Origin: Lactobacillus johnsonii ATCC 33200
GTDB taxonomy: Bacteria > Bacillota > Bacilli > Lactobacillales > Lactobacillaceae
DNA: 64,000 bases
Direction of reading: 5' to 3'
Assembly (NCBI RefSeq): GCF_000159355.1
Contig: NZ_GG670121.1
Location: forward strand, 394,358-458,357
In this document: piece after piece, positions 47,367 to 49,251 of the stretch
How positions within the stretch are numbered: the first letter of the stretch is position 1
Layout: every line of letters starts with the position of its first letter
The notes under the pieces: generated by a model
Told to the model about the DNA's origin: nothing
Database searches by the model: none
Seen by the model: the letters and a program-made list of their open reading frames with translations, nothing else
Translations under genes and position numbers: made by a program

Positions 47367-47370
47367 ATTG

Positions 47371-47443
47371 TGCTGACTAAAGGATTCGAACCTTCGACCT
47401 CATCATTACTAGTGACGTGCTCTGCCAACTGAGCTAAGTCAGC
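47371..47443 (-). tRNA. tRNA-Thr (anticodon AGT), copy 1
   Basis: The 73-base cloverleaf has acceptor GCTGACT/AGTCAGC, D arm GCTC/GAGC, anticodon stem CGTCA/TGATG (one G-T pair) with loop CTAGTAA, and T arm GAAGG TTCGAAT CCTTT. The anticodon is AGT, reading threonine ACN codons with an A at position 34. CCA is not encoded. Confidence 0.95.
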
Positions 47444-47540: not shown

Positions 47541-47568
47541 TTGCTTTTTAATAATATCATGATATTCT
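47541..47568 (+). promoter_or_regulatory. Promoter of the attenuated permease transcript
   Basis: TTGCTT at 47541-47546 and TATTCT at 47563-47568 have a 16-base spacer. Transcription would start near 47575, about 20 bases before the leader ATG. An alternative -10, TATAAA at 47571, is also possible. Confidence 0.5.
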
Positions 47569-47596
47569 AATATAAAATCATTTAGGAGTTAAAACC

Positions 47597-47665
47597 ATGA
47601 AATATTTACACCGCACTAATTTAAATACTTCTTCCTCCTCATCTTCCACCTCCAGTGGAACATGA
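47597..47665 (+). CDS. Ser/Thr-rich attenuator leader peptide
   Basis: This 22-residue ORF has a strong ribosome binding site, AGGAG, eight bases before its ATG. It reads MKYLHRTNLN, then Thr11, six consecutive Ser (12-17), Thr18, Ser19, Ser20, Gly, Thr22, stop. The eight Ser codons cover TCT, TCC, TCA and AGT, so both serine codon families are sampled. The stop TGA (47663-47665) abuts an arm (AGTGATT, 47665-47671) complementary to a terminator segment. It is followed by a terminator and a serine/threonine-exchanger-like gene. The role proposed is ribosome stalling on Ser/Thr codons when charged tRNA is scarce. The peptide itself probably has no function. Confidence 0.8.
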   Translation: MKYLHRTNLNTSSSSSSTSSGT

Positions 47666-47718
47666 GTGATTTTGTGTGGCCAAATATTTCCAAAAAAGCC
47701 TAGATTCGCTTAATCACT
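47665..47718 (+). promoter_or_regulatory. Candidate antiterminator arms
   Basis: AGTGATT at 47665-47671 is complementary to AATCACT at 47712-47718. In the terminator conformation the latter pairs instead with AGTGAT at 47729-47734. A ribosome at the leader stop codon would cover the first arm; one stalled at the Ser codons would leave it free. GAGTGATTTTGTG is in fact repeated at both places, as expected for competing arms. Confidence 0.6.
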
Positions 47719-47757
47719 TTTATAGCAGAGTGATTTTTGTGAATCTGGGCTTTTTTT
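47692..47757 (+). terminator. Attenuator terminator before the SteT-like permease
   Basis: AAAAAGCCTAGATTC pairs with GAATCTGGGCTTTTT (one mispaired or G-U position); an inner stem ATCACT/AGTGAT lies at 47713-47734. T7 follows the outer stem at 47751-47757, and the permease ATG is at 47779. No other gene lies upstream that this terminator could serve. Confidence 0.8.
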
Positions 47758-47778
47758 CTTTTAGAAAGGATTATCAAG

Positions 47779-49131
47779 ATGAAACAACAAAACCATCTTA
47801 AGCGTTCATTAGGCTTCTTTTCAGCTATTTCAATTGTTATTGGGACAATCATTGGATCAGGTATCTTTTTCAAACAAGCCTCAGTTCTTCAAAGTGCTCA
47901 TAATTCAACCTTAGCTATTAGTGCTTGTATCTTTGGTGGTGTTATTACACTAGCTGCTGGTTTAACAATTGCTGAAATTGGAGCTCAAATGCCATATACT
48001 GGTGGATTATATGTTTACATCGAGAAGTTATATGGTCGAATTCTTGGTTTTCTAGTCGGATGGATGCAAGTTATCGTCTATGGCCCTGCAATTATTGCAG
48101 CCGTAGGTGGTTTTACCGGTATTCTTATCGCCAATTTCTTTAATCTAGATGATTCCTGGCGCATTTCTCTATCAATCGGGTGCATGCTTTTTATCACTAT
48201 TATTAATTTTTTAGACAATAAGGTAGGGGCAGCATTTTCTTTTATTACTACAATTGGAAAAATGATTCCGATTGCTGCAATTATTATTTTTGGTATCTTT
48301 TGGGGTCAAAATAACGCCCTCGGTCAGACTACCGCTGACGTTAAACAAAGTAGTGGCGGATTTGGAGTTGCTGTGTTAGCTACCTTGTTTGCTTACGACG
48401 GCTGGATTTTAATTGCGAACTTAGGTGGTGAAATGAAAAATCCTCAAAAAGTCCTTCCGCAAGCTATTATCTTAGGAATTATGATTGTTTTAACGATCTA
48501 CACTCTAATTACAGTTGGTATCTTACGCTTTATTCCAGCCGACCTTATTGAGCGACTAGGAGAGGATACAACTAAGTATTTAGCTACAAAAGCTGTTGGT
48601 AATATTGGTGGAAAGCTATTAACATTAGGAATAATTATTTCAATGCTTGGCACTCTCAATGGTAAAATTATTACTTTTCCAAGGATTGTTTATGCTATGG
48701 CTAAAAGAAATGATTTACCATTTTCATCTTATTTAACCTATTTAACTCCAAAAGGAAAATCTCCTATTGTTGCTACTATTTTTATCACTGTATTAGCAAC
48801 TTTAATGCTAGTATTGTTCGATCCTGATCGCTTATCAGACTTATGTGTCTTTACGATATATTGCTTTTATATTTTGGCTTTTTTCGGCATTTTTAAATTA
48901 AGACGAGAAAATTCTAATCGTCCTTTTAGTACTCCGCTCTATCCTTTAGTACCAATCATTGCAATTTTAGGTGGATTATTTATCGTTGTCAGTGAACTAT
49001 TTAATGATCCTGCTGGTGTAGTTCTATTTTTAGGAATAGTAGCTGTTGGCCTACCTATTTTTTACTATCTTAAGCGTAAGGAAAAAATAAGTAGAAATAA
49101 GGCGATAGAAATAAATGAAAATCATGATTAG
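47779..49131 (+). CDS. SteT-like serine/threonine exchanger (APC/LAT family permease)
   Basis: This 12-helix amino acid transporter has 450 residues. It closely follows B. subtilis SteT as I remember it: VIGTIIGSGIF in helix 1, GLTIAEIGAQMPYTGGLYVYIE, LLATLFAYDGWI-type helix 6 (VLATLFAYDGWILIANLGGEMKNP) and GTLNGKIITFPRIVYAMAKRNDLP. SteT exchanges serine, threonine and related amino acids. AGAAAGGA lies 11 bases before the ATG. Expression is predicted to depend on the leader peptide and terminator upstream, whose Ser/Thr codons match the expected substrate. A terminator follows, shared with tRNA-Thr copy 2. Confidence 0.88.
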   Translation: MKQQNHLKRSLGFFSAISIVIGTIIGSGIFFKQASVLQSAHNSTLAISACIFGGVITLAAGLTIAEIGAQMPYTGGLYVYIEKLYGRILGFLVGWMQVIVYGPAIIAAVGGFTGILIANFFNLDDSWRISLSIGCMLFITIINFLDNKVGAAFSFITTIGKMIPIAAIIIFGIFWGQNNALGQTTADVKQSSGGFGVAVLATLFAYDGWILIANLGGEMKNPQKVLPQAIILGIMIVLTIYTLITVGILRFIPADLIERLGEDTTKYLATKAVGNIGGKLLTLGIIISMLGTLNGKIITFPRIVYAMAKRNDLPFSSYLTYLTPKGKSPIVATIFITVLATLMLVLFDPDRLSDLCVFTIYCFYILAFFGIFKLRRENSNRPFSTPLYPLVPIIAILGGLFIVVSELFNDPAGVVLFLGIVAVGLPIFYYLKRKEKISRNKAIEINENHD

Positions 49132-49169: not shown

Positions 49170-49178
49170 TTCTTATAG

Positions 49179-49251
49179 TGCTGACTAAAGGATTCGAACC
49201 TTCGACCTCATCATTACTAGTGACGTGCTCTGCCAACTGAGCTAAGTCAGC
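49179..49251 (-). tRNA. tRNA-Thr (anticodon AGT), copy 2
   Basis: This is identical over 73 bases to the copy at 47371-47443 and in the same orientation. The two copies form direct repeats flanking the SteT-like permease and its leader. Flanking sequence beyond the tRNA is not conserved apart from two bases. Confidence 0.95.

Follow-up and report, generated by a model that had tools for sequence, protein, structure and literature searches.

Candidate Serine-Sensing Leader-Peptide Attenuator of an Amino-Acid Permease Gene in Lactobacillus johnsonii and Related Leaders in Lactobacillaceae

Introduction

Lactobacilli of the gut and of foods depend largely on amino-acid import, and they carry many amino-acid permeases without an assigned substrate. 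Here we analyzed a 64,000-nucleotide stretch of DNA (the window) from the 1.78-Mb genome of Lactobacillus johnsonii ATCC 33200, in which a short serine-rich open reading frame (ORF) and a terminator precede an amino-acid permease gene. This locus raises the question of whether the ORF acts as a sensor whose translation decides if the permease is transcribed. Attenuators of the trp/his/thr type in Proteobacteria combine a short ORF, a run of regulatory codons, and the pairings 1:2, 2:3, and 3:4, with the stop codon located within region 2. An earlier sequence-only reading of the window had assigned this logic to the leader, with serine and threonine as the sensed amino acids and a SteT-like transporter as the regulated protein. 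The comparisons described below indicate that the window leader is very probably a ribosome-mediated (leader-peptide) transcription attenuator that senses charged tRNA-Ser and controls the amino-acid permease.

Results

Layout of the Leader and Proposed Mechanism

The leader at positions 47541–47778 and the permease gene consist of the following parts.

47541–47568, + strand: promoter-like pair, composed of TTGCTT (47541–47546), a 16-nt spacer, and an extended −10 TGATATTCT (47560–47568), assigned from the sequence
47584–47588, + strand: AGGAG, ribosome-binding site of the leader ORF, assigned from the sequence; an RBS-like block also precedes the upstream ORF (uORF) in aligned leaders
47597–47665, + strand: leader peptide ORF MKYLHRTNLNTSSSSSSTSSGT, 22 codons, translation predicted from the sequence
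47638–47647, + strand: region 1 CTCATCTTCC, the protector 5′ arm, located within the Ser codons (covariation of helix 1:2 and minimum-free-energy fold)
47657–47680, + strand: region 2, comprising the protector 3′ arm GGAACATGAG (47657–47666) and the antiterminator arm AGTGATT (47665–47671) (near-invariant motif)
47698–47718, + strand: region 3 GCCTAGATTCGCTTAATCACT, the terminator 5′ arm, which would also pair with region 2 (fold, covariation, and duplex energy)
47729–47757, + strand: region 4 AGTGATTTTTGTGAATCTGGGC with a T7 tail, forming the 3′ arm of the intrinsic terminator (covariation of helix 3:4 and fold)
47779–49131, + strand: LAT-type APC amino-acid permease, 450 aa (NCBIfam and PDB matches)

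The ORF contains 8 Ser codons, of which 6 are consecutive (47630–47647), together with 4 Thr codons, and an in-frame TCA codon is located at 47639–47641. Its stop codon is overlapped by region 2. AATCACT at 47712–47718 belongs to region 3 and AGTGAT at 47729–47734 to region 4, and the permease ATG is at 47779. Every element named in the sequence-only reading (AGGAG, the 22-codon ORF, the Ser run, AGTGATT, AATCACT, AGTGAT, the terminator, and the permease start) was located exactly where it had been placed, but the protector hairpin arms (47638–47647 and 47657–47666) had been overlooked. The leader folded with −63.6 kcal/mol versus −34.1 ± 4.5 kcal/mol for shuffled sequences (z = −6.6). A simple consensus scan of the window did not call the promoter-like pair TTGCTT/TGATATTCT, and a simple terminator scan of the window did not call the leader terminator, whose stem is interrupted. 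The −10 block ATGATATTCTAAT was wholly or partly retained in the aligned orthologous leaders.

These parts would operate as follows. When serine is plentiful, the ribosome would cross the Ser codons, reach the stop codon, and cover region 2, so that hairpin 3:4 would form and transcription would terminate. When charged tRNA-Ser is scarce, the ribosome would stall at the TCN codons of region 1, opening hairpin 1:2; the freed region 2 (GAGTGATT...) would pair with region 3, no terminator would form, and the permease would be transcribed. Ribosome stalling, a serine response, and the permease substrate are what we infer in this scheme.

Conservation of the Ser Leader

The Ser content of the leader by itself is not beyond chance: three runs of at least 6 Ser codons were counted in six frames of the window (20 shuffled windows together gave one), and short ORFs with at least 8 Ser numbered four, as compared with 0–5 per shuffled window. 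What places the leader ORF beyond chance is its conservation. A search of 75 Lactobacillus genomes gave 25 permease copies of at least 65% identity in 21 genomes, and inspection of all 25 upstream regions revealed a Ser-rich uORF in 22 of them, several of which are near-copies of each other; the leader of locus L029 has just four Ser codons. The three leaderless copies are each the first gene of a tandem pair. A terminator-bearing leader without a Ser-rich ORF, which the sequence-only reading had set out as the case against itself, was found for none of the 25 copies, as the three exceptions have no leader motif. The leader was also absent at all 9 inspected loci of a paralogue that is 37–39% identical.

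In Limosilactobacillus (g6), the Ser leader was present at 17 of the 22 loci inspected. The permeases of the relatives at L060, L061, L062, L063, and L064 have no Ser leader, so it was lost, or never gained, in some lines. The named loci number 79, of which 50 form the Lactobacillus/Limosilactobacillus clade as assigned by title and identity (L127 counted in). The Ser leader was found at 42 of the 49 clade loci with upstream DNA and was lacking at 7, the remaining locus having no upstream DNA. None of the 29 named loci outside the clade exhibited a Ser leader with the motif; three of them (L181, L182, and L184) are Weissella loci having Asn or Asp/Asn leaders, as judged by eye. Likewise, no Ser-rich uORF with the GAGTGA motif was detected at 57 orthologue loci (L065–L121) of genera besides Lactobacillus, Limosilactobacillus, and Weissella, where a few Ser-containing ORFs had a chance-like appearance. 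At L183, a Ser-containing ORF with a GTG start, located 232 nt upstream, was taken for chance and set aside. As a separate observation, L127 lies on a contig labelled Bacteroides sp. that bears a Lactobacillus-like permease and a Ser leader; this contig has probably been binned or labelled wrongly.

In Lactobacillus and Limosilactobacillus, the terminator was conserved jointly with the Ser run, the protector hairpin, and the region-2 motif GAGTGATTT. The motif of region 2 is almost invariant and fixed in position, although the stop codon moves in frame and place.

Covariation of Hairpins 1:2 and 3:4

The comparison of orthologues that the sequence-only reading had proposed turned out in its favor, since it gave both a conserved Ser run and compensatory changes in stems 1:2 and 3:4. 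Covariation was evaluated for 38 of the 45 leaders collected, omitting 7 near-duplicates; the cells given below count sequences and are not independent events. In the protector, a CTCA... 5′ arm in the Ser run pairs with a ...TGAG 3′ arm that runs directly into GAGTGATTT, with CTCAAG/CTTGAG, CTCAAT/ATTGAG, CTCAGT/ACTGAG, and CTCAAC/GTTGAG as the usual compensations. Helix 1:2 was paired in 94.4% of cells and exhibited two-sided changes at 5 of 9 pairs, while the values for helix 3:4 were 80.4% and 10 of 10. For the two helices together, 104 two-sided cells were observed versus 33.3 ± 7.5 in shuffled alignments, a number reached by 0 of 500 shuffles. The covariation score exceeded all 500 shuffles, and every slid register scored lower; pairs with two-sided changes numbered 15 versus 10.2 ± 1.6 (1 of 500 as high). 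A second set of 19 of the 22 Lactobacillus leaders, which overlaps with the 38-leader set, gave 41 two-sided cells versus 12.9 ± 3.3. At the level of sequence, this comparison established the Ser-codon ORF, the two hairpins 1:2 and 3:4, and the overall layout.

Pairing 2:3 and the Constitutive-Terminator Alternative

Pairing 2:3 was retained in 90.4% of cells with region 2 nearly invariant, and its covariation among the aligned leaders showed no excess over shuffles. The energy of the 2:3 duplex in the window was −13.4 kcal/mol versus −8.3 ± 2.3 kcal/mol for shuffled sequences (7 of 300 as low), and the duplex energy was matched by at most 11 of 300 region-3 shuffles in 18 of 19 leaders, the exception being L016 (76 of 300). 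When region 3 was swapped across these 19 leaders, no general advantage of the cognate partner was detected (ranks 1–15 of 19, the window 12th); the mean duplex energies were −16.4 kcal/mol for cognate and −14.2 kcal/mol for swapped pairs, and the exceptions were L028 and L029, whose region 3 pairs weakly with most of the other leaders. Complementarity makes pairing 2:3 plausible, while covariation leaves it unproven.

A constitutive premature terminator, accompanied by a uORF that is translated but senses nothing and only adjusts basal expression or the translation of the permease, would need no helix 2:3, for which neither covariation nor the swaps spoke, and the very strong terminator (approximately −29 kcal/mol) would suit it. 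However, such an arrangement leaves unexplained why a covarying protector 1:2 lies inside the Ser run, why region 2 is near-invariant, and why leaders of the same design with Thr codons precede another permease, so that we consider it improbable.

The behavior predicted for the attenuator was examined by folding the RNA between a ribosome and the terminator loop, the ribosome edge being assumed to lie 13 nt past the start of the A-site codon. A ribosome stalled at TCA left all 38 leaders with 11–17 expected 2:3 pairs. One placed at the stop codon abolished pairing 2:3 (less than 1 expected pair) in 33 of 38; in the five exceptions the ORF ends 12 nt after TCA, leaving region 2 partly free. The stalled 2:3 pairs averaged 14.2 over the 38 leaders versus 8.2 with region 3 shuffled, and in 26 of these leaders no more than 2 of 40 shuffles reached the observed value; for the window the excess was modest, at 11.1 expected pairs versus 6.6 ± 3.5 (reached by 3 of 40). 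In the absence of a ribosome, 2:3 still formed partially (mean 9.2 expected pairs); therefore, the fold model predicts neither a cleanly off default state nor strong default termination when the leader is untranslated. These modeled folds agree with the switch and are not decisive for the window leader alone. Joint conservation, the covariation of 1:2 and 3:4, and the masked folds together support the trp/his-type logic put forward in the sequence-only reading.

Putative Sensor Codons and the Arrest Alternative

Codon positions were counted from the in-frame TCA of the hairpin arm in the 38 leaders, for which TCA at position 0 was the entry condition of the alignment; no leader was lost through it. 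Ser was found at −3, −2, −1, 0, and +2 in 34, 34, 37, 38, and 35 of the 38 leaders, respectively, with position +1 being variable (A, S, T, V, and I). TCN made up 30 of the 34 Ser codons at −3, all 34 at −2, and 35 of the 37 at −1; among those at +1 and +3, 8 of 11 and 11 of 20, respectively, were AGY, meaning that TCN is used nearly throughout −2 to 0 and AGY is commoner further 3′. Such a bias resembles the sensing of serine through TCN codons in sinR of B. subtilis, as described in the accessible text of PMC3862929, and the two may be connected. Since the codons at −3 to −1 lie outside the stem save one base, the Ser at these positions is not explained by base pairing, and the mixture of TCN and AGY at the Ser positions indicates selection on the amino acid. 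The joint Ser/Thr sensing claimed earlier stood for Ser only: the Thr codons vary among orthologues, and sensing of Thr by the window leader was rejected. Sampling of all serine isoacceptors also held in part, in that TCN and AGY are both used but unevenly along the run.

Conservation of the peptide is mostly limited to these Ser codons, with a varying N-terminus and varying residues in between. This bears on attenuators of the erm/msrD kind, in which a uORF is combined with competing hairpins, and in which the stall is caused by the nascent peptide or a drug rather than by a shortage of Ser-tRNA. Their layout is common to the window leader, and a poly-Ser peptide is unusual; an arrest of this kind is nevertheless very unlikely here, given a peptide conserved chiefly at Ser codons, an amino-acid permease as the downstream gene, and Thr codons in front of ThrP-like permeases. 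A metabolite riboswitch or T-box concealed in the leader has next to no likelihood, for even though 18 T-box matches, of which 7 exceed the cutoff, occur in the host genome and the four orthologous loci inspected in genus g27 all have T-box matches below the gathering score, the window leader gave no Rfam match at threshold (the best relaxed match was Thr_leader, RF00506, 21.1 bits versus a gathering score of 55) and no T-box match (RF00230), either at the gathering threshold or with E relaxed to 5, no Rfam match covered the leader at 20 representative loci, and the conserved elements fit a ribosome-mediated switch.

The Downstream Permease

The permease scored 176 bits against the NCBIfam model TIGR00911 (L-type amino acid transporter), not reaching the curated cutoff of 702, and 293 bits against PDB 6f2g; it shares 78% identity with a protein of Lactobacillus kalixensis and 97% with a protein from an uncultured Lactobacillus. 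These matches place it among the LAT-type APC permeases related to 6f2g; the name SteT given in the sequence-only reading is a family-level guess. The substrate is presumably serine or small neutral amino acids. Apart from this, the leader-permease cassette lies between two identical tRNA-Thr(AGT) genes (47370–47443 and 49178–49251, − strand), direct repeats separated by 1.8 kb that may stem from an insertion or a duplication. At L012, a tRNA identical in sequence was seen by eye downstream of the permease.

Leaders with Thr, Asn, and Mixed Codons

The Ser leaders were used to build a covariance model (R2), which was run on the window genome and on 397 Lactobacillaceae genomes, in 62 of which matches were obtained at E ≤ 0.01. 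The window genome gave 14 matches at E up to 10, comprising the element itself (7.5e-22), its antisense, and 12 others from E 0.089; inspection of 4 of these 12 weak matches found none with a uORF and a permease, and the element itself is the one convincing match. Inspection of 34 further R2 places identified 26 Thr-rich leaders before ThrP-like genes (one of which, L291, is Ser-rich to an equal degree) and one Thr/Ser leader before a LAT-type gene, with nothing at the other 7. The Thr-rich uORFs, of which MMINLHINDNNKLNTTTTSTTV is an example, precede a different permease from that of the window. For the one Thr-leader permease scanned, the best NCBIfam model was ThrP (Thr/Ser transporter) with 557 bits, below the curated 850.

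A second model (R3) was built from 20 Thr leaders, so that many of its matches arise by construction. At E ≤ 1e-4 it matched 45 of the 397 genomes and 6 of 40 genera; three of the 45 genomes match solely through Ser leaders, as judged by coordinates. The 48 matches are divided into 30 with returned loci, 10 fetched additionally, L295 known already, 6 weak ones, and 1 left out. Each of the 30 returned loci has a Thr-rich uORF and, behind it, a ThrP-like gene of 64–100% identity to one reference, and the 10 fetched places are alike, while the six weak matches (E 2e-6 or higher) coincide by coordinates with leaders of LAT-type permeases. R3 had no match in the Lactobacillus genomes of the 397-genome sample and none at E < 0.1 in the window genome, where a weak cross-match to the window element appeared at E 0.118. 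In all, Thr-run leaders with a CTCAACCAC/GTGGTTGAG-type hairpin were recognized at L269–L296 (minus L285 and L293), L312–L341, and L343–L352 in six genera. The ThrP-like gene at L288/L312 (G439) is a 246-aa ORF that matches in two pieces and is therefore possibly frameshifted in the assembly.

In Weissella, the 26 loci of a first homologue comprised 15 with Asn-run leaders, 2 with Asp/Asn leaders, and 9 with none. Many of the loci L181, L182, L184, and L202–L222 have Asn or Asp/Asn leaders with an antiterminator of the GTGATTGGG : CCAATCAC type, and the leader is absent at L206, L207, L208, and L220. In 15 of the 17 Asn or Asp/Asn leaders of the first homologue, the 2:3 duplex was matched by at most 25 of 300 shuffles; the Asn case is weaker because AAT repeats are of low complexity. 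For a second homologue, 5 of 20 matches were inspected, of which four read ...TTSSDST... and one ...STTSTSS. Outside Lactobacillaceae, 246 genomes of the order gave 8 weak matches, and none of them combined a Ser- or Thr-rich leader with a downstream permease; one of the eight (L304) is near a contig end, where the downstream gene is not visible. It is likely that these leaders constitute an undescribed group of Lactobacillaceae attenuators on amino-acid permeases, with Ser leaders on LAT-type genes of Lactobacillus and Limosilactobacillus, Asn, Asp/Asn, and Thr/Ser leaders on Weissella homologues, and Thr leaders on ThrP-like genes in at least six genera.

Evolution of the Putative Switches

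In a tree of 50 permease proteins, the leader types clustered with 6 changes versus 21.2 when shuffled, a clustering that near-copies favor and to which a long-branch warning applies. All 25 Ser-leader proteins fell in one Lactobacillus-Limosilactobacillus-Ligilactobacillus clade, together with 6 leaderless proteins. As an observation in its own right, the permeases of L. jensenii and L. psittaci grouped with that of Limosilactobacillus coleohominis (L159 and L153 versus L136 and L144; 90/97), for which horizontal transfer is a possible explanation. The genus g27 orthologues (L109, L113, L115, and L117) exhibited the T-box matches mentioned above, two each in L109 and L113, with a best E per locus between 2.8e-11 and 7.7e-9 and none at the gathering score; in the specifier region UUAGCC, both GCC (Ala) and AGC (Ser) are readable. 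Unrelated switches would therefore govern homologous genes.

Discussion

The attenuation mechanism proposed here is classical, while Ser, Thr, and Asn attenuators on transporters of lactobacilli appear to be a new group. Among the papers listed by searches of the open-access literature, at most 20 per search, none dealt with a Ser, Thr, or Asn leader-peptide attenuator of lactobacilli. Where leader codons name the sensed amino acid, they provide a testable substrate prediction for each transporter; if the proposal is true, the codons predict each transporter's cargo, and sensing of serine may depend specifically on TCN codons. The classical leader-peptide design coexists with T-boxes in one genome, and the homologous permeases, some preceded by Ser, Asn, or Thr/Ser leaders and others by a T-box, form a natural series for the gain, loss, and recoding of switches.

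The window leader is like the trp/his/thr-type attenuators in its ORF, its codon run, the pairings 1:2 and 3:4, a plausible pairing 2:3, and a stop codon in region 2. Those attenuators belong to biosynthetic operons of Proteobacteria, whereas the window leader precedes a permease, uses Ser codons, and occurs in the T-box-rich Lactobacillaceae, as exemplified by the 18 matches of this genome. Among low-GC Gram-positive bacteria, ribosome-mediated attenuation would be shared with a His leader attenuator on hisS/hisZ in bacilli (accessible text of PMC2965389) and with branched-chain leaders on biosynthetic genes in S. aureus, L. monocytogenes, L. lactis, and streptococci (accessible text of PMC6123439); unlike the window leader, the cases given in those portions of the two papers include no Ser, Thr, or Asn transporter. 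For other organisms, the consulted part of PMC8632094 describes leaders with Cys codons and possibly with Phe codons. With sinR, the window leader would have TCN serine codons as the sensor in common; as far as the same part of PMC3862929 goes, they lower the product of the coding gene itself and no attenuator is mentioned, whereas the window leader would be an attenuator. Finally, the orthologue of SteT/ykbA in the B. cereus group is under a Thr T-box, according to the available text of PMC2494555. This SteT-like APC permease is of a type related to the window permease, which would likewise be controlled through tRNA charging, but the T-box binds uncharged tRNA directly, whereas the translated ORF is the presumed sensor in the window leader.
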